From Rhizorhapis suberifaciens (GTDB lineage: Bacteria; Pseudomonadota; Alphaproteobacteria; Sphingomonadales; Sphingomonadaceae), in contig NZ_JACHOV010000002.1 in NCBI RefSeq assembly GCF_014200045.1, positions 186,001 to 250,000 on the forward strand: DNA of 64,000 nucleotides. Direction: 5' to 3'. The stretch's first letter is position 1. The number at the start of each line of letters is the position of its first letter. The translations under genes were made by a program, and so were the position numbers. Shown in pieces: positions 3,207 to 64,000 of the stretch. The notes under the pieces were generated by a model that was not told the origin of the DNA, ran no database searches, and saw only the letters and a list, made by a program, of their open reading frames with translations.

Positions 3207-4076
3207 GTGCCAGTTGCGATAGCCATCGCCTTGCTTGTCCTGGGTTCGATCATATTCCATTTGGTCAGCCCTTGGTGGATGACGCCCCTTGCGTCCAACT
3301 GGGGTTCGCTCGACGATGCGTTGAACATCACCCTCTGGATCTGCGCGGTCGCCTTTATCCTGCTGAACCTCTTCATGGCGTGGGCGCTTTGGAAGTACCG
3401 GCACAAAGCCGGAAACCGCGCCCATTATGAGCCCGAAAATGCCTCGCTGGAAAAGCGGCTGACCTTCTGGACGGCTATCGGAATTGCCGGGATGCTGGCG
3501 CCGGGCCTTATCGCCTGGAGCCAATATGTGACGGTGCCCAAGGACGCTTCGGTTGTCGAAGCGACGGGCCAGCAATGGCAATGGAGCTTCCGCCTTCCCG
3601 GACCTGACGGTGTTCTGGGGACGGCGGCGGTGGGGCACATCACGCCTGACAACAGCTTCGGCCTTAATCCCCGCGATCCATTTGGCCGGGACGACCTATT
3701 GGTGGAAACCAACGAACTGCATCTGCCGATTGGGAAGCCCGTGAAGATGGTCTTGCGGTCCAAGGACGTGCTTCATGATTTCTACGTTCCGCAATTTCGG
3801 GCGAAGATGGATCTGGTTCCCGGCATCGTGACCTATTTCTGGATGACCCCCACCAAGACCGGGAGCTATGAGATTTTGTGCGCAGAGCTTTGCGGCGTCG
3901 GTCACCATGAGATGCGGGGTACGGTGGTGGTGGAATCGCCCCAAGCCTATGAAAAGTGGCTGAGCGATCAAGTCACCTTCAGCGAAGTCATGGCGCAAGC
4001 CGCGCCGTCCTCCATCTCCGCCATTTTGGCGAGTTCGGATAGTTGCACGACACCGGTAACGGGGAGCCTGAACTGA
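3207..4076 (+). CDS. coxB: Cytochrome c oxidase subunit II, alternative aa3 type
   Basis: Inner-membrane subunit carrying the CuA centre that receives electrons from cytochrome c. CuA ligands are visible as CAELCGVGHHEM (C225, C229, H233, M236), with the upstream His in VLHDFYVPQF. The aromatic electron-entry stretch QQWQWSF is present, and hydrophobic segments lie in the first ~110 residues. I chose GTG 3207 because GGAGGGG lies 7 nt upstream; ATG 3177 and the longer reading to 3132 lack such a site. First gene of a six-gene oxidase operon; its stop overlaps the next start (TGATG). The order resembles the coxMNOP alternative oxidase of Bradyrhizobium. Confidence 0.93.
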   Translation: MPVAIAIALLVLGSIIFHLVSPWWMTPLASNWGSLDDALNITLWICAVAFILLNLFMAWALWKYRHKAGNRAHYEPENASLEKRLTFWTAIGIAGMLAPGLIAWSQYVTVPKDASVVEATGQQWQWSFRLPGPDGVLGTAAVGHITPDNSFGLNPRDPFGRDDLLVETNELHLPIGKPVKMVLRSKDVLHDFYVPQFRAKMDLVPGIVTYFWMTPTKTGSYEILCAELCGVGHHEMRGTVVVESPQAYEKWLSDQVTFSEVMAQAAPSSISAILASSDSCTTPVTGSLN

Positions 4077-8339: not shown

Positions 8340-8690
8340 GGGGAGCTTCTGTTGCCCGGTGCTCCCCAAACCGCTGGAATCCGCTTCTGTTGCCCGGTGG
8401 GTCCAACCGCGTTCTTTTTGGGTAATGTCAGGGCGTGAGCCCATCAATTACGCAGCAAGAGCAAGAGCCTCGTTATCGTTGGCACTTGTAGGTTTTGAAC
8501 AGTTTTACGGCTTACTCGGGCCGGGCAAAAATATCGTCTTTCAACACACGTCTATCCTGGTTCGGCCCCGTCAGGACGGGCTTCGCTATGGGACGAAGCC
8601 CTTTCTGGTGGAGCCGCCGGGTACTGCCCCCGGGTCCGCTGCGCCTATTACACGACACAATTTATCGCCATAGCCGGACAGGTCCGGCAC
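8340..8690 (-). ncRNA. ssrA: Transfer-messenger RNA, circularly permuted two-piece type
   Basis: Read on the minus strand. The acceptor piece comes first and ends in GGCTCCACCA at 8615-8606. A spacer (about 8605-8570) follows, then the coding piece starting GGGGCCGAACCAGGAT at 8569. GGGGCC pairs with GGCTCC to form the acceptor stem with a G3-U pair, the alanine identity element. The tag reading frame at about 8484-8449 encodes ANDNEALALAA and then TAA, the expected proteolysis tag. Downstream are pseudoknot-like hairpins, including GGGGAGC/GCTCCCC at 8340-8367. Outer ends are approximate. Confidence 0.93.
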
Positions 8691-8750
8691 CACCCTATAT
8701 AGGGCGTCTTAAATGAATGAAAAGTGTCGAAAAGAGAAGAACCGCGCTAA

Positions 8751-9155: not shown

Positions 9156-9578
9156 CTATTTTTGCAGCAAATCCCTAATTTCCCTAAGCAGGACAACCTC
9201 TTGGGGTTCAGCTGCGGGCGCTTCCTCTTCCTTGCGAAAAAGCTTGCCCGCCTGCCGCACGATCAGGAAAATGATGAAGGCGAGGATCAGGAAGTTAATG
9301 ACGACGGTCAGGAACTGACCCCATCCCAACAGCGCCACGCCGGCGGCTTTCAGATCGGCATAACTGGCGGTCGAACCTTTGAAGTCCGCGGGAATGTCGC
9401 CAAGGACAAGAAAGTGGTTGGAAAAATCAAGGCCGCCGAACAGCGCCGCTACCAAGGGCATGATGATGTCGTCGGTCAGCGACTTTGTAATCGTTGCAAA
9501 GGCCGCCCCAATGATGACGGCGACCGCAAGGTCGAGGACATTGCCGCGCGCTATGAATTTGCGGAATTCAGCCAGCAT
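9156..9578 (-). CDS. mscL: Large-conductance mechanosensitive channel
   Basis: A 140-aa inner-membrane channel that opens under osmotic downshock. The N-terminal amphipathic helix and first transmembrane segment (FRKFIARGNVLDLAVAVIIG, about residues 5-24) are the family hallmark. A second segment lies near residues 88-108, followed by a charged C-terminal helix ending in LLREIRDLLQK. Length is normal. It faces the LemA gene divergently and is followed on the same strand by the small lipoprotein. Confidence 0.96.
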   Translation of the reverse strand: MLAEFRKFIARGNVLDLAVAVIIGAAFATITKSLTDDIIMPLVAALFGGLDFSNHFLVLGDIPADFKGSTASYADLKAAGVALLGWGQFLTVVINFLILAFIIFLIVRQAGKLFRKEEEAPAAEPQEVVLLREIRDLLQK

Positions 9579-44952: not shown

Positions 44953-45125
44953 ACGGGGTAGGCGGCGGCGATTAGCGGTCAGGGGGGGCTTTTGTCAATC
45001 GCCCTTTGCGCTAATTTTTGAATCATCCCACGCCTTTGCAGTTGTCAAGGAGATCGCTCCGTTGCAAGGGGGCGGAAGCCACACGGCTATTATAAAGCGG
45101 CCATTCCAGGGAGCACGCGGCAGAT

Positions 45126-46064
45126 ATGCAGTACAAGCTGGTGACTATCTTCGGCGGAGGCGGTTTTCTTGGCCGCTATGTCGCTCAGGAACTGCTTCAG
45201 GCGGGCGCCCGCATCCGTGTTGCTGAGCGCGATCCTTCCAGCGCCATGCACATCAGGCCCCTGGGAGGCCTTGGCCAGGTCCAGATGGTTGCTGCAAATG
45301 TGACCAAGGCAGAGTCGCTTGCCCGCGCCGTCGAAGGGGCCGACGCTGTCATCAATTTAGTCGGCGTTCTGAAAGGTGAATTCTACAAGGTTCATGTCGA
45401 GGGCGCGGCCAATGTGGCCCGAGCCGCGGCGGAAGCGGGTGCATCCAGCCTTGTTCACATCTCAGCCATAGGTGCCGATCCTCAGAGTCACTCGGAATAT
45501 GGCCGTACGAAGGGCCAGGGAGAGGAAGGGGTCAGGGCAAGCTTTCCCGGCGCGGCGATCATGCGGCCATCCATCCTGTTCGGACCGGAAGACCAGTTCA
45601 TCAATCGTTTCGCTCATTTGATCCGAACCGCGCCGATCGTACCGATTATCGGTGGCAACACGAAGTTCCAGCCGGTCTATGTAGCGGACGTTGCAAACGC
45701 GATTGCACTCGCCGCACTGCATCCGGGCAGATATGGCGGTAAAATCTATGAGCTTGGCGGGCCGCAGGTGATGACGATGGAAGAGATCAACCGGTGGATA
45801 GCCTCGGCCACCGGACGGCACCGCAATTTCATCACGGTGCCTGATGGTGTAGCGGACCTGCTTGCCAGTCTAACCGGATGGATGCCGGGTGCGCCAATCA
45901 CCTCCGACCAATGGAAAATGCTTCAGCATGACAATGTCGTGTCGGCTGGCTCCAAGGGCCTGCCTACCTTTGGCATTGAGCCCACTCCACTGGCAGCGGT
46001 CGCTCCGGGCTGGTTGGTGCAGTATCGCAAGCATGGCCGGTTTGGCATGGGCGCGTCGGCCTGA
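45126..46064 (+). CDS. NAD(P)H-binding protein, complex I NDUFA9-like
   Basis: A 312-aa short-chain dehydrogenase-like protein of the atypical SDR group. The Rossmann motif TIFGGGGFLGRYVAQELL is at the N-terminus, with IRVAERDPS as the second strand. GRTKGQGEEGVR and GPEDQFINRFA match the NDUFA9-like family, which in mitochondria is an accessory subunit of complex I. Its bacterial role is not settled. It starts 170 bp after the tRNA on the other strand and precedes uppP. Confidence 0.85.
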   Translation: MQYKLVTIFGGGGFLGRYVAQELLQAGARIRVAERDPSSAMHIRPLGGLGQVQMVAANVTKAESLARAVEGADAVINLVGVLKGEFYKVHVEGAANVARAAAEAGASSLVHISAIGADPQSHSEYGRTKGQGEEGVRASFPGAAIMRPSILFGPEDQFINRFAHLIRTAPIVPIIGGNTKFQPVYVADVANAIALAALHPGRYGGKIYELGGPQVMTMEEINRWIASATGRHRNFITVPDGVADLLASLTGWMPGAPITSDQWKMLQHDNVVSAGSKGLPTFGIEPTPLAAVAPGWLVQYRKHGRFGMGASA

Positions 46065-46167
46065 CGCCTCATTCTGTTCGGGGGTGAGCCTGCTGACGCC
46101 CCGCGACCCTCCCAGAACATACTGCCCATTGACCAACTGAGGGCGAACGGAAGGAACGCTGTGACCA

Positions 46168-46971
46168 ATGGATAACAATATTTGGACGGTCATCCTGCTG
46201 GGCATTGTTGAAGGGTTTACTGAGTTCATTCCCGTTTCCTCAACCGGTCACCTGGTTTTGGCCGGAGAGCTGCTGGGTTTTGAAAGCAAAGCTTCAGGTA
46301 CGTTCGAGATCGTCATTCAGCTTGGCGCGATTCTGTCGGTTGTTGTTCTCTATTGGAAACGTTTCTGGGAAGTCCTTCAGGGGCTCAGCCGAGCCAATCC
46401 GACGGCAATCGCCTTTACACGAAATATCCTACTGGGCTTTCTGCCTTCAGCGGTGATTGGCCTCATTATCTACAAGATGGTGAAGGCGATGCTGGAAACG
46501 CCGGAGATTACGGCGATAGCGCTCATTCTGGGCGGCATTGCCATATTGGCGATTGAACGCATGGTGAAGAAGCCTCACACATTCCTGGTTGAAGGGATGA
46601 GTTGGAAGACCGCGCTAGGTGTCGGCATTGTGCAGTGCCTGTCGATGATCCCTGGTGTCAGCCGCTCAGGCGCGACGATCATGGGGGCATTAAGCTTGGG
46701 CGTGGAGCGCAAGACGGCTGCTGAATTCAGCTTCTTCCTGGCTATCCCCACCATGCTTGCAGCCTCGGCTTACGATTTGCTGAAGACGGGGGCTTCGCTA
46801 GGGCAAGACGACTGGACCGCCATAGCAATAGGTTTCATTGTCTCTTTCGTGGTGGCGATCATCGTGATCAAATGGTTTATCGCCGTTGTTAGCAAGTTCG
46901 GTTTCGCTCCCTTCGCTTGGTATCGCATTGTTGCTGGAAGCGTGGCGCTCGTCTGGCTGATGATGAAGTAG
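46168..46971 (+). CDS. uppP: Undecaprenyl-diphosphatase
   Basis: A 267-aa integral membrane enzyme (BacA family) that dephosphorylates undecaprenyl diphosphate to recycle the lipid carrier of cell-wall synthesis. The two active-site motifs are clear: EGFTEFIPVSSTGHLVL and PGVSRSGATIMGAL. Seven or eight membrane segments and the length fit the family. Overproduction in other bacteria gives bacitracin resistance. It follows the NDUFA9-like gene by about 100 bp. Confidence 0.96.
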   Translation: MDNNIWTVILLGIVEGFTEFIPVSSTGHLVLAGELLGFESKASGTFEIVIQLGAILSVVVLYWKRFWEVLQGLSRANPTAIAFTRNILLGFLPSAVIGLIIYKMVKAMLETPEITAIALILGGIAILAIERMVKKPHTFLVEGMSWKTALGVGIVQCLSMIPGVSRSGATIMGALSLGVERKTAAEFSFFLAIPTMLAASAYDLLKTGASLGQDDWTAIAIGFIVSFVVAIIVIKWFIAVVSKFGFAPFAWYRIVAGSVALVWLMMK

Positions 46972-47133
46972 GTCCGTATCGGCCCTTTATGGGCGGCTCG
47001 GATGAACAAGGGGTTCAGGAAAGAGGATGAGCCGCTCCATAGAAGGACAGTTTTATTGACCTAAACTGGAAAATTCCCGTGACTCCCGTGGCTGTTCAGG
47101 TTATAGGCCCGCGCAATCAAGGAGTGACGAGAC

Positions 47134-48585
47134 ATGGCTGACAATCCCATGCTGAAATTCGTAGCCACTGGACAGTCTTATCCGGAAAAGCGCGCCGCGG
47201 CCGAACGTGCCGCAGATTTCAGCGAGATTTCGCGCAGCTTTGCGCTGGAAAGGGCGGAGGAACAATCTTCCCGCTGCTCCCAGTGCGGCGTGCCTTATTG
47301 TTCGACTCACTGCCCGCTCCACAATCATATTCCCGACTGGCTGCGCCTCACCGCCGAAGGCCGCCTGCGCGAGGCCTATGAGCTTAGCAATGCGACCTCG
47401 ACCATGCCGGAGATCTGCGGCCGCATCTGTCCGCAGGACCGCCTGTGCGAGGGCAATTGCGTCATCGAATTTTCCGGCCATGGCGCAGTCACCATTGGCT
47501 CGGTCGAAAAGTTCATCACTGACACCGCTTGGAAGGAAGGCTGGGTCGAGCCGCTCGTCCCGGGTGCCGATCGCGGCCAGTCGGTGGGCATCATCGGCGC
47601 TGGCCCCGCGGGTCTTACGACCGCGGAATATCTGCGCAAGGCAGGCTATGAAGTGCACGTCTATGATCGCCACGACCGCATGGGCGGCCTGCTGACCTAC
47701 GGCATCCCCGGCTTCAAGCTGGAAAAGGAAGTCGTCACGCGCCGCGTGGACCGGCTGGCCGAGGGCGGCATCGTCTTCCACGAGAATTTCGAAGTCGGTC
47801 GCGACGCCACGATGGAGGATTTGCGCGAGCGCCATGATGCGATCCTGATCGCTACCGGCGTTTACAAATCGCGGGACATCAAGGCGCCGGGCGTGGGCAC
47901 GCAGGGCGTGATGAAGGCGCTCGATTATCTGACTGCCTCCAACCGCAAGAGCTTTGGCGACGAAGTTGCGGCGTTCGAGGATGGATCCCTCAATGCGGCG
48001 GGCAAGAATGTCGTCGTCATCGGCGGCGGCGACACGGCGATGGATTGCGTCCGCACCGCCATCCGCCAAGGCGCGAAGTCGGTGAAGTGCCTTTACCGCC
48101 GCGACCGGGAAAACATGCCAGGTTCGCAGCGCGAAGTGGCGAATGCCGAGGAGGAAGGCGTCGAATTCGTCTGGCTCTCCGCCCCCGTCGCCTTCGAGGG
48201 CACGGAGCACGTCACTGGCGTCAAGGCCACGAAGATGCGCTTGGGCGCTGCCGACGCGAGCGGCCGCCGCTCGCCCGAGCCCGATCCGGGCACGGAGTTC
48301 ACGCTGGAGGCGGACCTTGTCATCAAGGCGCTCGGCTTCGACCCGGAAGAGCTGCCAAAGCTGTTCGGCTGCGACGACCTCGCCGTCACTCGCTGGGGCA
48401 CGCTGCGTGTCGATCACCGCACGATGATGACGTCGCTTGATGGCGTGTTTGCGGCAGGCGACATCGTGCGCGGCGCTTCGCTGGTGGTCTGGGCCATCCG
48501 CGACGGGCGGGATGTGACCGACCACATGCATAAATATTTGAAGGTGAAGGCGCGGGAGAAGCGAGAAGAGCGAGTGGCGGCGTGA
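47134..48585 (+). CDS. gltD: Glutamate synthase (NADPH) small subunit
   Basis: A 483-aa flavoprotein that passes electrons from NADPH to the large subunit. The N-terminal cysteine clusters CSQCGVPYCSTHC and ICGRICPQDRLCEGNC bind 4Fe-4S clusters. The FAD site is GIIGAGPAGLTTAE, and the NADPH site is VVIGGGDTAMDC. AAGGAG lies upstream of ATG 47134. It precedes gltB with a DUF2059 gene in between, overlapping that gene by 4 nt, so all three are probably one transcript. Confidence 0.95.
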   Translation: MADNPMLKFVATGQSYPEKRAAAERAADFSEISRSFALERAEEQSSRCSQCGVPYCSTHCPLHNHIPDWLRLTAEGRLREAYELSNATSTMPEICGRICPQDRLCEGNCVIEFSGHGAVTIGSVEKFITDTAWKEGWVEPLVPGADRGQSVGIIGAGPAGLTTAEYLRKAGYEVHVYDRHDRMGGLLTYGIPGFKLEKEVVTRRVDRLAEGGIVFHENFEVGRDATMEDLRERHDAILIATGVYKSRDIKAPGVGTQGVMKALDYLTASNRKSFGDEVAAFEDGSLNAAGKNVVVIGGGDTAMDCVRTAIRQGAKSVKCLYRRDRENMPGSQREVANAEEEGVEFVWLSAPVAFEGTEHVTGVKATKMRLGAADASGRRSPEPDPGTEFTLEADLVIKALGFDPEELPKLFGCDDLAVTRWGTLRVDHRTMMTSLDGVFAAGDIVRGASLVVWAIRDGRDVTDHMHKYLKVKAREKREERVAA

Positions 48586-49176
48586 GGTGGTTAACCTCAT
48601 CGGCAGCGATCGTACTACTGACGCTTTGCTCCACTGCACAAGCATCGGGTAGAGAAACGATCAATGCATCTTCTAACCTCGATCCCGTTCGGGTTGAGAA
48701 GGCAAGAGTGATTGTCGAGTTGATTGTTCCTGCCGATCAACGTGAGGCAATGTTCTCCAAAATTATAGATGCTTTTATGACCAATTCCATTGCCGGTGTT
48801 ATGCAGGCTAACCCCGAAATCAACCAATTGTTGTCGGAAGAGCCGGAACTGCGTCAGATATTCGCTACATTCGTAGAGCGACAACGCAACCTAGTCCTCC
48901 AGGATTTGGAGGAAACGTCGCCCGAACTGATGTTCGCATATACCAATGCTTATGCACGCGCATTCACGGCCAAAGAACTGGACGGTCTCAATGCATTTTT
49001 CGTCACCCCAGTGGGAAGAAAATATGTGTCAATGGCGCCAGGGTTAATGGCCGATCCCGACTTCGCGGCGTGGCAAAAAGGTGTCGCGGCTCGAGCAGAA
49101 GCCAGAAAAGATGAAGAGCTGAAGAAGTTGATGGATCAAGTTATGCCCGTGATCAGGGCCAAGGGAGCAAAGAATC

Positions 49177-49187
<11 letters not shown>
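48582..49187 (+). CDS. DUF2059 family exported protein
   Basis: A 201-aa protein with a signal peptide (WLTSSAAIVLLTLCSTAQAS). The C-terminal half has the DUF2059-type helical sequence AYTNAYARAFTAKELDGLNA followed by FFVTPVGRKYVSMAPG. The start is GTG 48582 within the gltD stop (GTGA), and the stop overlaps the gltB start by 11 nt. It is AT-richer than either flanking gene. DUF2059 proteins are periplasmic with no known activity; a link to glutamate synthase is not expected from the family. Confidence 0.8.
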
Positions 49188-53694
<4,507 letters not shown>

Positions 53695-53763
53695 TCTGCG
53701 AGGGTGTGGCATCATGACCCTTCTTTGAAGGGTACTGTTGCGAAGCAGGCCTAATTATTTCTT

Positions 53764-53851
53764 GTCATGCCAGCGAAGACGGGAATCCATCTTAGGACGT
53801 AAAACCAAGCGATTGGTACGAGAGATGGATTCCCGCCCGCGCGGGAATGAC
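53764..53851. repeat. Intergenic inverted repeat
   Basis: Two imperfect arms of 29 nt (53764-53792 and 53823-53851) point at each other across a 30-nt spacer. They share GGGAATCCATCT and GTCAT ends. The right arm contains its own CCCGC/GCGGG hairpin. The same core occurs inside the subunit III gene at about 6091-6140, so this is a dispersed element of this genome. It may also help to end gltB transcription. Confidence 0.75.
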
Positions 53852-53892
53852 GGTCAATAGAATTTGGCGACACACCTTATGTGAACGGCGAT

Positions 53893-54210
53893 TTACCAGC
53901 GATAGCCGTAGCGCCGATCCCGATAGTGCCAGCGGTCACGATCGCGCCGCGCCCAACGACGTTCCCGCTCCAGCTCGCGCTTCTGCATGCGATATTCCCA
54001 GCGGCTGATATAGCCATGACGATAGGCATAGCGAAGTTCGCGCAACGCTCGATCATAGCTGTTCAAGCGGCTGTGCCGGCGATCGCCATTATAATAATAG
54101 TGGCCGCCGCGATAATCGCTATAGCCATAGCGCCCCCCGTCATGCGCCAGCGCCGTGCCCGTAGGGACAAGCACCGTCACAGCCGCCGCCATGAGCAGCT
54201 TCTTAAACAT
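53893..54210 (-). CDS. Small exported Arg/Tyr-rich protein
   Basis: A 105-aa protein with a signal peptide (MFKKLLMAAAVTVLVPTGTA, cleavage after ALA). The mature part is rich in Arg, Tyr and Asp, with RALRELRYAYRHGYISRWEY and a basic helix ending in YRDRRYGYRW. It is likely a periplasmic or surface protein of high positive charge. ATG 54210 follows GGAAGGAGAGGA; the frame to 54270 is not needed. No named family is recognised. Confidence 0.7.
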   Translation of the reverse strand: MFKKLLMAAAVTVLVPTGTALAHDGGRYGYSDYRGGHYYYNGDRRHSRLNSYDRALRELRYAYRHGYISRWEYRMQKRELERERRWARRDRDRWHYRDRRYGYRW

Positions 54211-54380
54211 TCGTCCTCTCCTTCCTCTGGAATGGAAGGAGAGTAAGCGCCTGTTGCGCTGAATAGGCACTGAACTTTTTGTTCAGAATCGGGACAGTTG
54301 AAGCCCGGAGCGGCTTTTCACTATGTAGCTTGGCACGAGAAAAGAAGGGCGCTATGTCCGCCGGGAAGGTCGGATATTTC

Positions 54381-54700
54381 GATCTTCATGATCGCGCCGG
54401 TGCCCCACAAGGGGCTTGAATGGGAATGCGGTGCGGAAGCTTTGGCTTCCAAATCCGCGGCTGTCCCTGCAACTGTAAGCGGCGAGCGCGATGCACATCG
54501 CTCCTTTTTCAAAAAGGGGCAGCCACTGGGTTGCGGCATGAAGATGCTGATCCTGGGAAGGCCGTGCATCAAGCTTTGACCCGCGAGCCAGGAGACCTGC
54601 CGGCGCACTGGTCGCTCTTGCCTTGGTCCAGGGGTTGGTCACGGCACGGTAATCCTCCGTCTGAGCGACGAATGAGCGGCTGGGGCCGCATCGGAACGTG
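54381..54700 (+). repeat. 320-bp direct repeat, copy 1
   Basis: Matches 59607-59926 at 319 of 320 positions, with T at 54551 against C at 59777. Offset is 5226 bp. Flanking sequence diverges at once on both sides. It contains the whole cobalamin aptamer and about 95 nt beyond it. Confidence 0.97.
54394..54606 (+). promoter_or_regulatory. Cobalamin riboswitch 1
   Basis: An RNA aptamer that binds a cobalamin. Stem P1 pairs GCGCCGG (54394-54400) with CCGGCGC (54600-54606). Conserved pieces are seen in order: TTGAATGGGAA, CTGTCCCTGCAACTGTAAGC, GCAGCCACTGGG, CTGGGAAGGC and the B12 box GCGAGCCAGGAGACCTGCC. It precedes the TonB-dependent receptor operon and should lower its expression when B12 is plentiful. 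Confidence 0.95.
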
Positions 54701-54757
54701 CGTCGGTCGCTTATGGCGTCGGGCCGCCGCGCGTGCCGACCGTTCGTAAACGGCACG

Positions 54758-54785
54758 CCCCCGCCACGTCGCAAGGCGCCGGGGG
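54758..54785 (+). promoter_or_regulatory. Possible RBS-sequestering hairpin of riboswitch 1
   Basis: CCCCCG (54758-54763) can pair with CGGGGG (54780-54785), the ribosome-binding site of the receptor gene. An upstream hairpin (GCGTGCCG at 54731-54738 with CGGCACGC at 54751-54758) would compete for the same strand. This would let the aptamer control translation. Pairing is seen; regulation is inferred. Confidence 0.5.
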
Positions 54786-54793
54786 AAGTTTTT

Positions 54794-56935
54794 GTGATCA
54801 ATATCTTATTTTCCAGCAGTGCACTCGCCGCATTCCTGTTGCCTGCATTGGCCCATGCCGAGATTGGCGCAGAAGCTGCGGGCAAGACCGATATCCTCGT
54901 GCTCGGCAATCATGATGACGAGGTGAATGCGCCAACGCAGACCGGAAGCCGCCTTGGCCTGACCATCCTTGAAACACCTGCCAGTGTCGAAACCTTGCCG
55001 GGCGACATGATCCGCAGGCGAGGCGATCTATCGATCGTCGATGCAGTGACTCGCGCCACGGGCATCAGTTCGGTCGCCAATCCAGGCAATGGCGGCACTG
55101 GCCTCGCCGCGCGCGGCTTTTCCGGCCAGGGCTCGGTCATGATCCTCTATGATGGCGTCCGCCTCTATCCGGGGGCCGGCACCGTCACTTTTCCGACCGA
55201 TCCCTGGACAGTGGACAGGATCGAGGTGCTGCGCGGCCCGGCGTCCGTGCTTTATGGCCAGGGCGCCATAGGCGGCGCGGTCAATGTCATATCCAAAAAG
55301 CCCAACACCGAGCGGACCGAGCTTGAGGCGGAGGCCAGCTATGGTTCGCAGAATAGCTGGCGTATCGGCGCTGGGGTCGGTGGCCCCGTGAACGATCTGC
55401 TGGCCTACCGGCTCGACGTCAGCCGGACCCAATCGGACGGCTGGGTTGATCGCGGCAAATCGGAGGGGCTGGCGATCTCGGGATCGCTGCAGTTCCGCCC
55501 TATCGAGACGCTGACCTTCACTTTGTCCGACGATTATAGCGACCAGCAGCCGATGCGGTATTTCGGGACGCCGCTGATCGACGGGCGGCTTGATGATCGA
55601 AATAAGCGCAGCAACTACAATGTCGCCAACGCGGCGATACGTTACAAGGACAACCGCACAACGGTCAAAATCGAATGGATCCCGAACGATACCATCACCG
55701 TTCGCAACACCAGTTACCGCCTGACGACCGACCGCAGATGGCGCAACCTCGAAAGTTATTTTTGGAACGGTGTCAGCGGAAAAGTCGACCGCTTCGATTT
55801 CTTCGGCATCGATCATGACCAGACGCAGGTCGGCAACCAGGGCGATGTCACGATCCGCAGCAATTGGGGCGTGCTGAAGAACGAACTGCTCGTCGGCTTC
55901 GACGTCAACAACATCAAGTTCCGGCATTCGAATGATTTCGATTCCGGCTCGCCCCCGTCAGGTTTCGCAGAGCCCGTCGATCCGTTCAGCTTCGATCCCG
56001 GTCTCTATTACAACACGTTTGGCGTGCGCCCCCAATATCGTACGCGTACGCGCCAATATTCCCTCTTTGCCGAGGATCGCCTGACGATCAGCGATCATCT
56101 GTCGGTATCGGCGGGCATCAATTTCGACCGAGCCAATGTGAAGCGCTACGTTATCAGCCACGGCGCGGGCGGCGCGACAAGCGAAGCCTTGGGGCTGGAC
56201 AAGACGCTGCGGAATGTCACCTGGCGGGTAGGTGCCGTCTATAAGCCCGTCTCGACGCTGTCGATCTACGGTCAATATGCGACCGCCGTCGATCCGCTTG
56301 GATCGCTTGTAACATTCTCGGTGGGACAGGCGGCGTTCAAGCACACGACCGGCGATCAAGTAGAGGCCGGGGTGAAGGCCAGCTTTATGGGCGGGCGCGG
56401 CCTTGCGACCTTCGCTGCCTACCGGATCGTGAAGAAGAACCTCCTCGCCACGATTCCCGGAAGTCTTCCGCCAGTGCAGGATCAGGTCGGGCAGCGTTCG
56501 GCCAAGGGGATCGAGGCGTCAATCACGCTTGATTTGCCCGGCGGGTTTGGGATCGATGCCAACGGCACAATCCTCGACGCTCAGTTCGACGAATTCCTCA
56601 GCGGAAGCATTTCTTTTAGCGGCAATACGCCGCCCAACATTCCCGAAGAGACCGCCAATCTCTGGTTGCGCTACGATGTCACCGAGCGGGTCCAGACGCG
56701 GGTCGGCTTGCGCTATGTCGGCAAAACCTATTCGGACAACGCCAACCAGTTCCGGGTGCCGGCTTATGCGGTGGTGGACGGGGGCATCTCCTTTGCTGTG
56801 ACCAAGAACGTCGCTGCCAACCTGCGCATCTATAATCTGTTCGACAAGGATTATGCGACCACCACCTATAATAACGAGCAGTGGTTGCTCGGGCGGCCAC
56901 GCTCGATCGACGCTTCGGTCAGCATGCGTTTCTGA
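54794..56935 (+). CDS. TonB-dependent receptor, B12-riboswitch controlled
   Basis: A 713-aa outer-membrane receptor. After a signal peptide (about residues 1-22, ending AHA) comes a possible TonB box (DILVLGN), then the plug domain with TPASVETLPGDMIRRRG and VLRGPASVLYGQGAIGGAVN, and a 22-strand barrel ending in SIDASVSMRF. It looks like the siderophore-receptor group rather than classical BtuB. GTG 54794 is chosen because GGGGGA lies 7 nt upstream. Control by a cobalamin riboswitch suggests that the cargo is a corrinoid or a cobalt chelate. Confidence 0.87.
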   Translation: MINILFSSSALAAFLLPALAHAEIGAEAAGKTDILVLGNHDDEVNAPTQTGSRLGLTILETPASVETLPGDMIRRRGDLSIVDAVTRATGISSVANPGNGGTGLAARGFSGQGSVMILYDGVRLYPGAGTVTFPTDPWTVDRIEVLRGPASVLYGQGAIGGAVNVISKKPNTERTELEAEASYGSQNSWRIGAGVGGPVNDLLAYRLDVSRTQSDGWVDRGKSEGLAISGSLQFRPIETLTFTLSDDYSDQQPMRYFGTPLIDGRLDDRNKRSNYNVANAAIRYKDNRTTVKIEWIPNDTITVRNTSYRLTTDRRWRNLESYFWNGVSGKVDRFDFFGIDHDQTQVGNQGDVTIRSNWGVLKNELLVGFDVNNIKFRHSNDFDSGSPPSGFAEPVDPFSFDPGLYYNTFGVRPQYRTRTRQYSLFAEDRLTISDHLSVSAGINFDRANVKRYVISHGAGGATSEALGLDKTLRNVTWRVGAVYKPVSTLSIYGQYATAVDPLGSLVTFSVGQAAFKHTTGDQVEAGVKASFMGGRGLATFAAYRIVKKNLLATIPGSLPPVQDQVGQRSAKGIEASITLDLPGGFGIDANGTILDAQFDEFLSGSISFSGNTPPNIPEETANLWLRYDVTERVQTRVGLRYVGKTYSDNANQFRVPAYAVVDGGISFAVTKNVAANLRIYNLFDKDYATTTYNNEQWLLGRPRSIDASVSMRF

Positions 56936-56937
56936 CA

Positions 56938-58494
56938 ATGCACGGGTCTGCTATCCCGCCATCCACGGCGGCCATGGGGAAGAGAGGCGCGGTGCTGCGC
57001 CTCATTCTTGTCCTGCACCGCTGGCTGGGCGTCGTCATCGGTGTGCTGATGACCATCTGGTGCCTGTCCGGCTTCGTGATGCTCTATGTCGATTATCCCC
57101 GGCTTCTACCGACCGAACAGTTGCGCGGTCTCTCACCCTTGCAACTGCCCGTCGCGGAAGACTGGGACCGCATAGCCCTAGCCCCGCAAACGGCTCTCGC
57201 TTCGGCGCGGGTGGAGATGATGGCCGGCCGGCCGGTGCTGCGGGTGGTGCCGGACAGCGCTGGGCAACGTGCGATCTGGCAGACGCGCGCCTCTCCGCAA
57301 AATTATGAGCTTGTCACTGGTAAGCTCGTGCAGCCGCTGTCCGCGGACGACATGCGGAGAGTCGGCGGTGATTTCGGCCGCAACTTCGGCATTCCCGGAC
57401 CCGTAGCGGCAGCGACGCCGATCACGGTCGATCAATGGACGGTCCAGGCTTTCAGGGACAATAGTCCGCTCTGGCGTATCGACTATACCGACAGCGCAGG
57501 GGCGACGGCCTATATCGCTGGCCGGACCGGCGAGGTGGTGCAGGAAACGACCCGCTTCGAACGCTTCTGGGGCTGGCTGGGCGCTATACCCCACTGGCTG
57601 TACCCCACGATGTTGCGACAGCATCCGCACGCGTGGGCGCAAGTCGTCATCTGGACTTCGCTCGCCGGCTGCTTCCTGACCGTCACGGGACTTTGGGTAG
57701 GGATTGCCCGCCTGAGACGCGGAAGGGATGGGAAGACTGGATCGCCTTATCGCGGCCTTTGGTGGTGGCATCATATATCCGGGCTGGTCGTCGGACTTAT
57801 TACCCTGAGCTGGGTGGCTAGCGGGCTGTTGTCCGTAAGCCCCTGGGGCGTGTTCGACAGCGACGCGGGTGCAGCGGAGCAGCATCGCTTAACCGGAACG
57901 ATGCACTGGACCGATGTGCGTGAGGCGCTGCGCAATATCCGCCAGCTTCCACCCGGCACAGTCCGTATCGAAAGCGCGCCCCTGGGCGGACGGATTTTTT
58001 TCGTCACAACGGACTCGCATGGACACATGGCGCGGATCGATGCGCTGGGACGACCGGCGATTTTGAAACATGGGGCAGTCGAAGCGGCCTTGCGCAACGG
58101 GCCGCCCCTGGCCTCCCTGACGCTGCTGCGATCCGAGGACCCCTATTATTATGCCTATAAACAACCGGTGAAGCTGCCGGTGTGGCGAGCGATCCTTTCA
58201 GATTCCCAGCGTACGCGCCTCTATATTGACGCCCAATCGGGGGCCTTGATCCATGTGGTCGATGGCGTGTCCCGTGCCGAGCGCTGGTTGTGGAACGCTC
58301 CGCATAGCTTTGACCTGCCGGGCTTGCGCGCGGGGCTGTTGCGCAACCTCGTCATCCTGCCCCTGCTGGCGGCCGTGGCGTTTGTCTGCGCCACAGGCAG
58401 CTGGATGGGCTTTCGAAAGCTGGGCCGCGACTTGCGGCGTATCCGACGGCGCGGGCCGCCCCATTCCCCCTTTCCTCACCAGGAGCATTCATAA
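56938..58494 (+). CDS. PepSY domain membrane protein
   Basis: A 518-aa inner-membrane protein with four or so membrane segments: about residues 25-45 (WLGVVIGVLMTIWCLSGFVM), 235-255, 285-310 and near 475-495. Large periplasmic PepSY-like parts lie between them. HHISGLVVGLITLSWVASG and LHRWLGVV with conserved His resemble the PiuB/FsrB-type proteins thought to reduce metal chelates after import. It starts 2 nt after the receptor stop and overlaps the transporter gene, so it belongs to the cobalamin-controlled operon. Confidence 0.85.
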   Translation: MHGSAIPPSTAAMGKRGAVLRLILVLHRWLGVVIGVLMTIWCLSGFVMLYVDYPRLLPTEQLRGLSPLQLPVAEDWDRIALAPQTALASARVEMMAGRPVLRVVPDSAGQRAIWQTRASPQNYELVTGKLVQPLSADDMRRVGGDFGRNFGIPGPVAAATPITVDQWTVQAFRDNSPLWRIDYTDSAGATAYIAGRTGEVVQETTRFERFWGWLGAIPHWLYPTMLRQHPHAWAQVVIWTSLAGCFLTVTGLWVGIARLRRGRDGKTGSPYRGLWWWHHISGLVVGLITLSWVASGLLSVSPWGVFDSDAGAAEQHRLTGTMHWTDVREALRNIRQLPPGTVRIESAPLGGRIFFVTTDSHGHMARIDALGRPAILKHGAVEAALRNGPPLASLTLLRSEDPYYYAYKQPVKLPVWRAILSDSQRTRLYIDAQSGALIHVVDGVSRAERWLWNAPHSFDLPGLRAGLLRNLVILPLLAAVAFVCATGSWMGFRKLGRDLRRIRRRGPPHSPFPHQEHS

Positions 58495-59540
58495 TGGCCC
58501 TGCCACTGCCATCCGTCCGTTCAAGATTTGGTCGCCGCGTCAGTTGGCTCTTTGGGTTGTTGCTGGCGGCGAATGTCGCCATATGGATTTGGGCGCTTTC
58601 CCTTTTTCATGACCAACCCGTGATGCTGGGTACAGCCTTGCTTGCCTGGGGGCTAGGGCTGCGCCATGCCGTCGATGCCGATCATATCGCGGCAATCGAC
58701 AATGTGACGCGCAAGCTGATGCAGGACGGTCAGCGACCTATATCCGTGGGTTTCTGGTTTGCCATCGGCCATAGCGCGATCGTTCTGATCGCAGCCGTCG
58801 CCATTGCGATGACCACTGCCGCCCTGACGAGTCTGGAAGAGTTCAAGCAGGTTGGCGGCCTGATTGCGACATCGGTCTCGGCTACATTTCTCTTTGTTAT
58901 TGCCGCAATGAACCTCATTATCCTGCGGTCCGTCTGGAAAACCTTCGTGCATGTCAGGGCAGGGGGTGTTTATGTCGAGGAGGACCTCGACCTGTTGATC
59001 GGCAATAGGGGTTTGCTGGCGCGACTGTTCAAACCATTGTTCCGGCTCGTCAACCGCAGTTGGCACATGGCGCCGCTGGGCTTTCTGTTCGGTCTGGGTT
59101 TCGATACCGCAACGGAAGTCGCCATTTTAGGTCTGTCCGCCAGTCAGTCGGCCGACGGTTTTTCGATCGGCACGGTTCTGGTGCTGCCGGCGTTGTTCGC
59201 GGTTGGCATGGCGCTGGTCGACACCGCCGATGGCGTGGTCATGATGGGCGCGTATCAATGGGCGTTCGTAAAGCCGATACGCAAGCTATACTACAACATC
59301 ACCATCACATTGATTTCGGCGATAGTCGCCATCGTGATCGGCGGCATAGAGGCGGTTGCTCTCCTGGGCGAAAAGCTGGGCCTTACCGGTGCCCCGTGGA
59401 CGCTTGCTGCTGAATTAGGCGAAAATTTCAACAGCATGGGCTTTGCCATCATCGGCCTTTTCATTTTCTGCTGGATTGCCAGCTTCGTCATTTATCGCTG
59501 GAAGCGCTTTGATGAGATCGAGGTCACGCTCGCCGCGTGA
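58494..59540 (+). CDS. Nickel/cobalt transporter, HoxN/NixA (NiCoT) family
   Basis: A 348-aa inner-membrane permease with about eight membrane segments. The NiCoT signature is clear: LGLRHAVDADHIAAIDN in segment II, with the metal-binding His and Asp. LGFDTATEVAILGL and LFAVGMALVDTADGVVMMGAY are the other family motifs. Under a B12 riboswitch its substrate is most likely Co2+ rather than Ni2+. ATG 58494 overlaps the PepSY stop (TAATG). Last gene of the operon, followed by the second riboswitch. Confidence 0.92.
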   Translation: MALPLPSVRSRFGRRVSWLFGLLLAANVAIWIWALSLFHDQPVMLGTALLAWGLGLRHAVDADHIAAIDNVTRKLMQDGQRPISVGFWFAIGHSAIVLIAAVAIAMTTAALTSLEEFKQVGGLIATSVSATFLFVIAAMNLIILRSVWKTFVHVRAGGVYVEEDLDLLIGNRGLLARLFKPLFRLVNRSWHMAPLGFLFGLGFDTATEVAILGLSASQSADGFSIGTVLVLPALFAVGMALVDTADGVVMMGAYQWAFVKPIRKLYYNITITLISAIVAIVIGGIEAVALLGEKLGLTGAPWTLAAELGENFNSMGFAIIGLFIFCWIASFVIYRWKRFDEIEVTLAA

Positions 59541-59606
59541 TGCTATCGCGAATTTGCATTCAAATGTTTTTCGTTTAGGAGCTGAATCCGAAGGTTGGGT
59601 AACATT

Positions 59607-59926
59607 GATCTTCATGATCGCGCCGGTGCCCCACAAGGGGCTTGAATGGGAATGCGGTGCGGAAGCTTTGGCTTCCAAATCCGCGGCTGTCCCTGCAACT
59701 GTAAGCGGCGAGCGCGATGCACATCGCTCCTTTTTCAAAAAGGGGCAGCCACTGGGTTGCGGCATGAAGATGCTGACCCTGGGAAGGCCGTGCATCAAGC
59801 TTTGACCCGCGAGCCAGGAGACCTGCCGGCGCACTGGTCGCTCTTGCCTTGGTCCAGGGGTTGGTCACGGCACGGTAATCCTCCGTCTGAGCGACGAATG
59901 AGCGGCTGGGGCCGCATCGGAACGTG
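59607..59926 (+). repeat. 320-bp direct repeat, copy 2
   Basis: Second copy of the repeat at 54381-54700, with one difference (C59777). The homology ends at AACGTG; what follows is unrelated to copy 1. The repeat carries no transposase gene and no visible target duplication. Confidence 0.97.
59620..59832 (+). promoter_or_regulatory. Cobalamin riboswitch 2
   Basis: Same aptamer as riboswitch 1, with P1 arms at 59620-59626 and 59826-59832. The single change (A-T-C to A-C-C at 59777) lies just before the conserved CTGGGAAGGC and should not disturb binding. It precedes cobW and cobN. Downstream, a 7-bp hairpin with a T7 loop (59931-59951) and a CCCC stretch near 59990 that faces the GGGGA ribosome-binding site of cobW form a different expression platform. 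Confidence 0.95.
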
Positions 59927-59930
59927 ACAA

Positions 59931-59951
59931 CGGGCGCTTTTTTTGCGCCCG
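59931..59951 (+). terminator. Hairpin downstream of riboswitch 2
   Basis: CGGGCGC (59931-59937) and GCGCCCG (59945-59951) form a perfect stem around seven T. The T-run is in the loop rather than after the stem, so a classical terminator is doubtful. It replaces the hairpins found after copy 1. Confidence 0.4.
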
Positions 59952-60026
59952 CCCGGGGTCGCGTACTGACCGACATTTCCGTCGGCAAGCCCCTGCCATC
60001 GTTGCTCCGGCGCATGGGGATCATCG

Positions 60027-61064
60027 ATGTCCGATCTGAATAAAGTGCCTGTGACGATCATAACCGGTTTTCTGGGCGCCGGAAAAACCACGCTGATCAG
60101 TCATCTTATCCGGAACGCGGAAGGGAGCAGGCTGGCAGTGGTCGTGAATGAGTTCGGCACTCTGGGCGTCGATGGCGATATCCTGAAATCCTGCTCCATT
60201 CCCGATTGCCCGGCCGAAAATATCGTCGAGCTTGCCAATGGGTGCATTTGCTGCACCGTGGCCGATGATTTCATTCCCACAATCGAAAAACTGCTCAATC
60301 TGGACCAACGCCCTGACCATATCTTGATCGAGACATCGGGCCTCGCCCTGCCAAAGCCCCTGCTCAAGGCGTTCGACTGGCCCGACATCCGGTCGCGCGT
60401 CACCGTGGATGGCGTGATCGCGCTGGCTGATGCAGAGGCGGTTGCGGCGGGCCGCTTCGCCCCGGACCTAGACGCACTTGAAGCTCAGCGCGCTGCGGAT
60501 AGCAATATCGATCATGAGACGCCGCTGTCCGAAGTGTTTGAAGATCAGCTCGCCTGCGCCGATATGGTGCTGCTGACGAAGGCCGATCTTGCAGGGCCAG
60601 AGGGCGTCGCCGCCGCACGAGCCGTCATTGCTGCCGAAGCAGCGCGCTCGATCCCGGTAATAGAACTGAAAGAGGGAGCGATTGACCCGCGCTTGATCCT
60701 GGGCCTTGGCGCTGCCGCAGAAGACGATATCGCGGCGCGTCCATCGCATCATGACGGGGAAGGCGACCATGAGCATGATGATTTTGACAGCGTGGTTGTG
60801 GAATTCGGCCAGATCATCGACCCTGCCGATCTGTCCGCGCGGATCGAGAGCTTGGCGCGGGATCAGAATATCTTGCGCGTCAAGGGCTACGCCGCGGTAG
60901 CGGGCAAACCCATGCGTCTTTTGGTCCAGGCGGTGGGTGCGCGAGTGCGCAGCCAATATGATCGGCTCTGGCGTGAGGACGAGCCGCGTATAACTCGGCT
61001 GGTGGCTATCGCCGAGCGCGATCATATTGACGCAGACGCAATCCGGCAGGTTGTCGAGGCCTAA
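60027..61064 (+). CDS. cobW: CobW-type GTPase, cobalt chaperone for cobalamin synthesis
   Basis: A 345-aa G3E GTPase. The Walker A motif is GFLGAGKTT (residues 14-22), the metal-binding CxCC motif is in ANGCICCTV, and the guanine motif is in LLTKADL. A His/Asp/Glu-rich stretch (SHHDGEGDHEHDDFDS) before the C-terminal domain can hold metal. CobW is thought to deliver Co2+ to the CobNST chelatase. ATG 60027 has GGGGA 6 nt upstream. It precedes cobN by 6 nt. Confidence 0.95.
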   Translation: MSDLNKVPVTIITGFLGAGKTTLISHLIRNAEGSRLAVVVNEFGTLGVDGDILKSCSIPDCPAENIVELANGCICCTVADDFIPTIEKLLNLDQRPDHILIETSGLALPKPLLKAFDWPDIRSRVTVDGVIALADAEAVAAGRFAPDLDALEAQRAADSNIDHETPLSEVFEDQLACADMVLLTKADLAGPEGVAAARAVIAAEAARSIPVIELKEGAIDPRLILGLGAAAEDDIAARPSHHDGEGDHEHDDFDSVVVEFGQIIDPADLSARIESLARDQNILRVKGYAAVAGKPMRLLVQAVGARVRSQYDRLWREDEPRITRLVAIAERDHIDADAIRQVVEA

Positions 61065-61070
61065 GCCCCC

Positions 61071-64000
61071 ATGCATGTCATCTTCCGCGAAACCCACGGG
61101 CTTGAAGAAATGGCGGTTCCAAAGGATCTTGGGCAAACGCCTGCGGATCTTGTGGTCCTGTCTTTTTCCGACAGCGATCTTGGTGCATTCGCGGCTGGGT
61201 GGCGGCGTGCGCAAGCGGCAGGCTCTCCATTGAGCAGCCTTCGCCTCGCCAACCTATCAGAACTAACGCATCCGCTGTCAGTGGACACCTATGTCGAAAA
61301 GACGCTGTCAGGCGCCAAGGCAATCCTGATCCGGTTGATCGGCGGGTCTTCCTATTGGGCCTATGGGCTCCAGCAGGTTGAGGCATTGGCGAGGACGCGC
61401 GGAATCGCACTCGCGGTTTTGCCCGCCGATGGCAGGATCGACACGCGGCTCAATGAGTTCTCGACGCTGCCGGGGCCGCTGCTGCATGAACTTGCGCAGC
61501 TTTGCGACGCCGGCGGGGAGGTCGCGGCGCAAATGGCGCTTACGAAGCTGGCGCTGGCAACGGGGCTTGAGAGCGAACGGGTGCAAAGCGCCCATGCAGT
61601 CGCAACAGTCGGGGCGTGGCATGCAGATGAGGGTATCACCTGTCCTGCGGCCTTTGCCTTGACCTCATCCCGGCCAAAAATCCTGCTTGTTTTCTACCGC
61701 GCCTATTTGACGGCAGCCGATCTGCACCCTTTTGAGGTTTTGCATGCCGCATTCAGGAAAAAGGGCTTTGATGTGCTGGGGCTGTTCGCGCCGTCACTAA
61801 AGGACCCCAGCGCTCGCGAATGGTTGGAACGGTGGGTGCAGGCGCTTGCTCCCGTTGCCATCGTTAATGCCACTGCGTTTTCGGCACGCGGGGAGGATGG
61901 GGCGACCCCCCTCGACGCTGCTGGCGTTCCTGTGTTTCAGCTCGCTCTCGCGACTTCCGGGCGCGAAGCTTGGGAAGCGGCATCTCGCGGTCTTTCTCCA
62001 GCCGATCTGGCCATGCACATAGTGCTCCCCGAAGTCGACGGACGGCTATTTGCCGGTGTGGCGAGTTTCAAGCAAACAGCTATCATCGATGCCGATCTGG
62101 AATATGCGCGGTCGGAGCATCGGGCGGAACCATCACGGATCAATGCCATAGTCGAACGGATCACTGCCTGGGTAAGGCTGGGGCAGAAGGCTGCGGATCA
62201 ACGGCGGTTGGCGCTGATTCTTTCAACCTATCCCGGCAAGGACCATCAGATGGCCCATGCGGTCGGCCTTGACGCTTTGGCATCTGCTAAAGCGATTTTG
62301 CATGATCTGTCTTGCGCAGGTTATGTAACGGATGATCGCGAGAACCTCGCCATTGCGCTTCAGACGGATCGATTGAGCTGGTCGCTGGAGGAATATCGCG
62401 AGGCGCTGAAATGCGTGCCGGATACTTTGCGCGCGGAACTGTCCGCGGCTTGGGGGGAACCCGAGGACGACCCCTCAGCCCTCGACGGCAAATTTATATT
62501 CGCGGCATTGCAAGCGGGGGCAGTCACGATTGCGCTGCAGCCGGAGCGCGGCATGCCCCACACGCGTGGCGATGATTATCATGATCTGTCGCGCTTGCCG
62601 CGCCATGCCTATGTCGCCTTTTATCTCTGGCTGCGGGAGCAGGGGATCGATGCACTGCTGCATATCGGCGCGCACGGCACGCTGGAATGGCTGCCCGGCA
62701 AATCGGTCGCCCTGTCGGACACCTGCTGGCCGGAGATACTCTTGGGGCCGACGCCCGTGATCTACCCCTTCATTGTCAACGATCCGGGCGAAGCTGCGCA
62801 AGCCAAGCGCCGCATCGGGGCCGTGACGCTGGGGCATGTGCCGCCGCCGATGAAGGTGGCGGAAGGCGGCATGGGTCTGGCGCGTATAGAAGCGCTATTG
62901 GACGAATTTTCCAATGCCGACGGACTTGATCCAGCCCGGCGCAACCGGTTGCAGTCCGACATCCGTTCCGAGGCGCAGGCGCTTGGGCTGGAAGAGGAAC
63001 TTGGTCTCGACAGCGCCACCACGACGATTGAAGCTATCTCCCGCATCGACAGGTTTGTTTGCGACGTGAAGGAAAGCCAGTTCGGCGACGGTTTGCATAT
63101 TTTCGGCCGGGGCGAGCATGGTGATGCGGAACGCAACGGGCTTCTGACGGCGCTTGCGGGGCGGCGCATCGCGCCGGGTCCGTCTGGCTCGCCCTTTCGC
63201 GGGCGGTCCGATGTACTGCCTACGGGCCGCAATCTATACACTATCGACCCACGCGCCGTGCCATCCCGCGCGGCCCATGAACAAGGCGTCAAGGTGGCGG
63301 AAGAACTCATCCGGCGGCACTTGCAGGATCATGGCGATTATCCCCGCAGACTGGTGGTGGACCTATGGGGCTCGGCTACGATGCGAACCGCGGGCGAAGA
63401 GTTCGCCATGGCTTTGCATCTATTGGGGGCGAAGCCCGTTTGGGATATGACATCAGAGCGAGTGTCGGGCGTGGAGATTCTGCCGCTTGTGCTGTTCGAC
63501 CGTCCCCGCATAGATGTGACGCTGCGGGTGTCCGGGCTGTTCCGGGACGCCTTTCCGACGCTTCCCGCGCTCTTCGGACAGGCGGTGCGGGCGTTGTGTG
63601 CACGCGATGAACCGCCGGAATGGAACCCCTTTGCCGGCCGCGCCGTCGCCCCGCGTGTCTATGGACCGCAACCGGGAAGTTATGGCCTGAACGTCGATTC
63701 TGGCGCTTTTAGCGTGCAGGATCGATTGGCGGCGGGCAGGGCCTGGCTTGCGGCGTCCAGCCATGCATTGGACATGGGGTCGGAACAGTTCGATCCTGAC
63801 GGCCTGCGGCTTCGCGTGGCGTCGGCGGACGCCTTTGTTCATTTGCAGGACCTTCCTGAAACGGACCTTCTGCTAGCTGCGGACTATGCGGCGCATGAGG
63901 CGGGGTTTGCCGCCGCGCAACTTGTGACGGGCGGATCGGCCAGCCTCTATCACCTGGACGCCCGTAATCCTGAGCAAGTCAGCGCGCGGACCCTGACAGA
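61071..64000 (+). CDS. cobN: Aerobic cobaltochelatase subunit CobN (partial, runs off the window)
   Basis: The frame is open from ATG 61071 to the window end, over 970 codons, with no stop. CobN is the large subunit of the ATP-dependent chelatase that inserts Co2+ into hydrogenobyrinate a,c-diamide. Family stretches are visible: STYPGKDHQMAHAVGLD-like sequence, IGAHGTLEWLPGKSVALSD, NLYTIDPRAVPSRAA and LRVSGLFRDAFP. The C-terminal third lies beyond the window. The start codon is 6 nt after cobW. Shared control by riboswitch 2 is expected. Confidence 0.93.
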   Translation, partial: MHVIFRETHGLEEMAVPKDLGQTPADLVVLSFSDSDLGAFAAGWRRAQAAGSPLSSLRLANLSELTHPLSVDTYVEKTLSGAKAILIRLIGGSSYWAYGLQQVEALARTRGIALAVLPADGRIDTRLNEFSTLPGPLLHELAQLCDAGGEVAAQMALTKLALATGLESERVQSAHAVATVGAWHADEGITCPAAFALTSSRPKILLVFYRAYLTAADLHPFEVLHAAFRKKGFDVLGLFAPSLKDPSAREWLERWVQALAPVAIVNATAFSARGEDGATPLDAAGVPVFQLALATSGREAWEAASRGLSPADLAMHIVLPEVDGRLFAGVASFKQTAIIDADLEYARSEHRAEPSRINAIVERITAWVRLGQKAADQRRLALILSTYPGKDHQMAHAVGLDALASAKAILHDLSCAGYVTDDRENLAIALQTDRLSWSLEEYREALKCVPDTLRAELSAAWGEPEDDPSALDGKFIFAALQAGAVTIALQPERGMPHTRGDDYHDLSRLPRHAYVAFYLWLREQGIDALLHIGAHGTLEWLPGKSVALSDTCWPEILLGPTPVIYPFIVNDPGEAAQAKRRIGAVTLGHVPPPMKVAEGGMGLARIEALLDEFSNADGLDPARRNRLQSDIRSEAQALGLEEELGLDSATTTIEAISRIDRFVCDVKESQFGDGLHIFGRGEHGDAERNGLLTALAGRRIAPGPSGSPFRGRSDVLPTGRNLYTIDPRAVPSRAAHEQGVKVAEELIRRHLQDHGDYPRRLVVDLWGSATMRTAGEEFAMALHLLGAKPVWDMTSERVSGVEILPLVLFDRPRIDVTLRVSGLFRDAFPTLPALFGQAVRALCARDEPPEWNPFAGRAVAPRVYGPQPGSYGLNVDSGAFSVQDRLAAGRAWLAASSHALDMGSEQFDPDGLRLRVASADAFVHLQDLPETDLLLAADYAAHEAGFAAAQLVTGGSASLYHLDARNPEQVSARTLT

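Follow-up and report, generated by a model that had tools for sequence, protein, structure and literature searches.

Two cobalamin (vitamin B12) riboswitches stand in neighbouring leaders in a 64,000-nucleotide (nt) stretch of the Rhizorhapis suberifaciens genome (contig NZ_JACHOV010000002.1, positions 186,001 to 250,000; hereafter the window). Copy A heads the genes for a TonB-dependent receptor, a PepSY-associated protein and a NiCoT cobalt/nickel transporter, and copy B heads cobW, a B12/cobalt gene context whose members are also the named neighbours in relatives. We think it highly probable that these are two old, separately placed riboswitches which were recently homogenised over a shared 320-nt core by gene conversion. 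Gene conversion is preferred because the two-copy layout is old, the 3' flanks are site-specific, near-total identity is confined to the core and the shared sequence is a composite of A-type and B-type states.

Identity of the two copies and their history in relatives

When the two window copies (W_A and W_B; Table 1) are compared directly by script, 319 of their 320 nt are equal, in the same orientation, and the bases adjoining the repeat differ between the copies at both ends. A repeat finder run over positions 45000-64000 returns a single repeat family, 54381-54680 and 59607-59906, with a spacing of 5226. The 320-bp repeats with one mismatch and sharp ends that a sequence-only reading of this DNA had described are thus reproduced. 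That reading had also called the aptamers identical; they are near-identical instead, as the sole mismatch (54551 T, 59777 C; repeat position 171, counted from the copy start) falls within the aptamer. Both copies match the full RF00174 model (positions 1-189; gathering score 31.5). By our reading of the Rfam alignment, the mismatch lies at the inner end of a P6-like helix, opposite a U, and is probably neutral because neither base pairs there; a change from G-U to G-C, also considered, is unsupported by the alignment. The 82 nt that follow the Rfam match are conserved in relatives and do not represent arbitrary flank.

The whole genome contains four RF00174 matches, of which the next-closest to the repeat is 78% identical. 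This third riboswitch lies on another contig (C6, 6854-7167), and the open reading frame downstream reads to us like a TonB-dependent receptor. A mobile repeat was considered and rejected, the next-best match in the genome being just 78% identical. No inverted repeat of at least 40 nt was found in 45000-64000, shorter terminal repeats not having been searched, and the repeat had no match in a phage collection at an E value of 1e-5.

The riboswitch is common in the family: an RF00174 survey found a match in 188 of 199 genomes, as counts without sequences that are blind to identical pairs. For the two-riboswitch layout we kept 80 NiCoT loci from other genomes (numbered with the prefix L), of which 74 have at least one match to the repeat and 64 have two forward copies. 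Leaving aside one truncated locus (L046) and 10 loci whose copies lie over 6.5 kb from each other gives 53, and five fetched loci bring the number of pairs to 58. These come mostly from sphingomonads, and 57 of them flank a NiCoT gene; the exception, L121, has no NiCoT match. The A and B copies of the 58 pairs are 61.9-83.3% identical (median 75.7), and one of these pairs, L075, reaches 85.1% in a separate alignment. The best same-site match in another genome is 77.4-100% for untruncated pairs, and 81.8 and 81.7% for the two window copies. Because other pairs diverge to 61.9-83.3% while same-site matches between genomes reach 77.4-100%, A and B are old paralogues, and the window holds the only near-identical pair among the pairs compared. 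The sequence-only reading had named, as a finding that would speak against it, relatives whose aptamers at the two sites clearly differ; such relatives exist, yet they indicate that distinct copies came first and were then homogenised in this lineage.

Five records in this sample (L045, L047, L048, L050 and L137), which were counted separately, carry identical or nearly identical riboswitches in their B12 clusters under the labels Croceicoccus (metagenome-assembled genomes, MAGs), Sphingobium, Sphingomonas (a MAG) and Sphingopyxis (a mobilizable plasmid). Their likeness hints at a recent horizontal spread of the B12 cluster.

The likeness of the window pair is of a different order from that of other A-B comparisons. 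In the window pair the longest unbroken run of agreeing polymorphic columns spans 98; in 6844 comparisons of A with B copies across genomes it is at most 46. A Sawyer-type permutation test gave low p values for most pairs; it is confounded by a conserved core lying beside variable flanks, and the cross-genome comparisons supersede it. By this standard a cross-genome pair matches L042 (a run of 44), a cross-genome run of 46 surpasses L136 (42) and L076 is ahead by one column, so that only the window is clear. At the hypervariable columns, which vary freely among 137 other rows, W_A and W_B agree in 74 of 75, whereas the agreement in 63 other pairs is 0.71 at its highest, with a median of 0.43. 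Strongly conserved as the aptamer core is, this contrast makes it extremely improbable that purifying selection alone has kept two old copies alike. W_A and W_B are also sisters in a tree of 75 rows, many others having been dropped beforehand, with support of 100/99.

The sequence immediately 3' of the core tells the two sites apart. We compared it with that of 13 relatives of our own choosing from the 58, among which L045 and L137 are identical in the core. The W_A flank is 72.9-84.9% identical to the A flanks of 12 of the 13 and 59-64% identical to B flanks; for the W_B flank, identity is 59.8-72.6% with the relatives' B flanks and 52.3-59.4% with the A flanks, and the B value is the higher in all 13. 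Because the 3' flanks match the own-site flanks of relatives in this way, each copy still resides in its own old leader. Compared with each other, the W_A and W_B 3' flanks are 62.9% identical (shuffles: mean 50.3, max 60.2), as expected if they belong to old paralogues.

These observations bear on recent duplication, whereby one riboswitch would have been copied into a leader lacking one. Duplication would explain both the 319/320 identity and the sharp end, and it had been proposed side by side with gene conversion in the sequence-only reading. The need for a recent event holds, and gene conversion is the form of it that we prefer. Duplication as the origin of the pair is very unlikely, given that relatives have a riboswitch at both sites, that the window copies run into 3' leaders orthologous to those of their own sites, and that the sequence they share is an A/B composite.

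The composite is seen at the columns diagnostic of site. Between repeat positions 226 and 274 the shared window sequence has six B-type states, two A-type states and two that are neither; it is A-type at 292-312 and B-type at 318. W_A has the B-type state at two upstream markers, at both of which the A copies of other loci, 45 of 45 scored, are A-type. W_B in turn is A-type at its 3' end, for which there is one true counterpart (L033_B) among 43 other scored B copies; a second candidate, L025_B, proved to be a pattern artefact. These marker counts come from a script that passed over 15 of 119 rows. Because W_A is B-type upstream and W_B is A-type at its 3' end, both loci seem to have received sequence, B-type into locus A and A-type into locus B. 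Such states also argue against an assembly artefact, to which a draft genome of 34 contigs could be prone if one copy had been filled in from the other. We give this a slim chance: one difference persists, the two copies sit within a single contig, each with an orthologous 3' flank, and copying A into B cannot put B-type states into copy A.

In the course of events that we favour, two distinct riboswitches would have existed first, A before the receptor-PepSY-NiCoT genes and B before cobW, and homologous recombination would recently have made their 320-nt cores alike by gene conversion. Transfer would have run in both directions, in at least two patches or through one patchily repaired heteroduplex. 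We infer RecA-type machinery and this order of events. The core ends in CGTG, which is common to most of the A and B leaders shown, as expected if the tracts stopped where homology stops. With one difference in 320 nt, against 14-18% to the nearest relatives, the last homogenisation would fall at roughly 2% of the time since the nearest lineages split, given even rates.

Several points weigh against this account. The comparison genomes represent one per species, which places concerted change between strains outside their reach, and the genus is represented by just one further genome, whose sole RF00174 match is weakly similar to the repeat. Of the states that the window copies share, only two have a frequency of 3% or less in the other rows. 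The thirteenth relative, L058, is a misfit at the A flank (53.6%), and the 5' flanks, being at random similarity, leave orthology on that side unconfirmed. The 226-274 segment is not purely B-type, B-type returns at 318, and the second upstream marker is A-type in 16 of 56 other B copies; some of the marker states could be homoplasy or old variation.

Probable similar exchanges in other loci

Sharing of a comparable, sharp-edged kind is found in two other loci. On a complete plasmid of Sphingomonas paeninsulae (L136, 14275-14585), no nucleotide differs between the A and B copies for 103 nt, up to GACGAA; the B copy has A-type states within this stretch and B-type states thereafter, which would make it a separate, partial conversion. 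In L121, two cobalamin riboswitches 979 nt apart (2354-2641 and 3333-3638) share 94.8% identity between the aptamer start and the GACGA block, and about 51% in the sequence to each side of this stretch; cobW in this locus is preceded by a third copy, at 9466. The B copies of L010, L012, L013, L014 and L017, four of them labelled Sphingobium, combine A-type states upstream with B-type 3' markers. Exchange has likely recurred across loci, only the case in the window being clear-cut. Against a wider recurrence stand the cross-genome runs that match or exceed those of L042 and L136, and the result that a clade of all A copies is not rejected. An older homogenisation in two Sphingomonas clades, suggested by a quick tree, proved unneeded and we do not claim it, because the approximately unbiased (AU) test gave a p-AU of 0.375 for a single A clade.

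It is tempting to speculate that in sphingomonads the B12 sensor is an exchangeable cassette, repeatedly reset by gene conversion from the neighbouring operon, with the junction often in the near-invariant block at 275-292 and with output-setting hairpins over the ribosome-binding site (RBS) that stay private to each operon. We regard this generalisation as doubtful. If true, it would describe a regulon with a common sensor and separate gains.

Leader structure and gene context

Downstream of the core, each leader has a predicted hairpin that would occlude the RBS (Table 1). The two hairpins lie outside the repeat and differ from each other. RBS pairing of at least 0.8 is found in 13 of 18 scored A leaders and in 8 of 25 B leaders, and the folding energies of the RBS regions of A and B are no better than those of shuffles. 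With moderate confidence, we propose that B12 represses translation through near-identical sensors and differing output hairpins. Both RNAs would be ordinary translational B12 off-switches that work by kissing of L5 with L13 and by hairpins over the RBS, the latter downstream of the exchanged tract. The sequence-only reading argued that the two operons have to respond at one and the same B12 level. This is too strong: because the predicted output hairpins differ, the claim amounts to a guess about sensing and not about response.

A front hairpin is predicted in 116 of 118 scored leaders (a count made with no shuffle control); its arms span the boundary of the repeat in the window and pair in both copies. 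Complementarity between the L5 hexamer and its candidate L13 partner holds in all 137 scored rows (of 150), a result that is partly built in, as the L13 pattern required CA followed by purines. The telling part is a double compensation, UCUCUG/CAGAGG, in seven rows of one clade, which suggests that the hexamers can pair; a one-sided change occurs in four rows. Kissing between L5 and L13 is established in other corrinoid riboswitches (PMC10653944, PMC9600662). Folding of the 3' domain by itself gives its closing stem, GUCGCUC/GAGCGAC, in every one of 114 rows; in longer folds the stem is present in 15 of 24 (A 10 of 12, B 5 of 12) and is absent from that of W_B.

Table 1. Positions, in window coordinates, of the two riboswitch leaders, their parts and the genes that follow them
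Feature	Position	Strand	Basis
Repeat copy A: aptamer and conserved 3' domain, upstream of TonB-dependent receptor gene	54381..54700	+	repeat finder, RF00174, script comparison
Repeat copy B: identical to copy A over 320 nt save one mismatch, in front of cobW	59607..59926	+	repeat finder, RF00174, script comparison
Cobalamin aptamer, copy A	54381..54618	+	RF00174, 103.1 bits
Cobalamin aptamer, copy B	59607..59844	+	RF00174, 102.6 bits
Only A/B mismatch, T (C at 59777), at the inner end of a P6-like helix	54551..54551	+	script comparison; helix position as we read it from Rfam
Near-invariant block (repeat positions about 275-292) holding the switch from B-type to A-type	54655..54672	+	diagnostic columns, conservation
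A-specific leader remainder, orthologous to relatives' A flank, 62.9% identical to window B flank	54701..54793	+	flank comparison
B-specific leader remainder, orthologous to relatives' B flank	59927..60026	+	flank comparison
Predicted front hairpin, copy A; 3' arm partly within the repeat, 5' arm outside	54365..54387	+	fold prediction
Predicted front hairpin, copy B	59590..59613	+	fold prediction
L5 hexamer UCCCUG, copy A (copy B 59690-59695)	54464..54469	+	sequence
Candidate L13 hexamer CAGGGG, able to pair with L5, copy A (copy B 59855-59860)	54629..54634	+	one double-compensated change in a clade of relatives
3' domain, copy A: stem GUCGCUC/GAGCGAC enclosing P13-like and ACGG/CCGU hairpins	54611..54669	+	folding
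Predicted RBS-occluding hairpin of receptor gene, CCCCC/GGGGG	54758..54785	+	pairing probability 0.99
Predicted RBS-occluding hairpin of cobW, CCCC/GGGG	59990..60019	+	pairing probability 0.98; minimum-free-energy structure pairs differently in another fold
TonB-dependent receptor, BtuB-like by context	54794..56935	+	Plug, TonB_dep_Rec_b-barrel
PepSY-associated transmembrane protein (start provisional)	56938..58494	+	PF03929
NiCoT cobalt/nickel transporter	58494..59540	+	PF03824
CobW	60027..61064	+	PF02492, PF07683

The order receptor, NiCoT, cobW, cobN is annotated on plasmids of Sphingomonas paeninsulae, Sphingopyxis sp. 113P3 and Novosphingobium sp. ES2-1, and on the first of these a PepSY-like gene lies between those annotated genes. 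It is possible that recombination between the 320-nt direct repeats of the window could delete the intervening 5.2 kb. Between the upstream gene and riboswitch A, an inverted-repeat unit at 53764-53851 (about GTCATGCC...GGGAATCCATCT / AGATGGATTCCC...GGAATGAC) resembles a REP-type (repetitive extragenic palindromic) element. Elsewhere in the window, the minus strand at 8376-8727 carries an ordinary alphaproteobacterial transfer-messenger RNA (tmRNA) gene of the permuted type.

Relation to known systems and significance

As members of RF00174 the two window riboswitches show nothing different in kind: they share with the family a full-length match over the gathering score, a B12/cobalt gene context and pairable L5 and candidate L13 hexamers, to which the window adds the predicted front hairpin and the conserved domain after the aptamer. 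Gene conversion and concerted evolution of bacterial paralogues are known from ribosomal RNA (rRNA) operons and the tuf genes. The window has in common with these a within-genome likeness that exceeds same-site likeness, sharp limits and mosaic states; it differs in that the converted unit would be a cis-regulatory RNA whose attached outputs stay different.

A similar cluster has been described in Sphingomonas haloaromaticamans, where a B12 riboswitch lies upstream of btuB-hoxN-cobW-cobN (PMC6970198); the portions of that report available to us name one riboswitch and mention neither a second copy nor an exchange. For the lysine riboswitch and the lysW gene, a joint duplication followed by divergence has been proposed in another study (PMC5584792). 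That case resembles ours in having more than one riboswitch copy per genome and differs in that here old copies would have become alike again. Among the matches listed from the open-licence literature there was no report of riboswitch gene conversion, prior mention elsewhere being possible.

The natural mosaics of the window, L136 and the L010 group offer ready sensor/output chimeras for finding the part of the leader that sets the response. The apparent homogenisation in the window also carries a warning, namely that paralogous riboswitches of the same genome cannot safely be treated as independent in trees or covariation counts. Most discussion of concerted evolution concerns rRNA and protein genes. 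In the window the process appears to affect two cis-regulatory RNAs with different target genes, which suggests a way in which a regulon may maintain similar sensors with no protein regulator in common.

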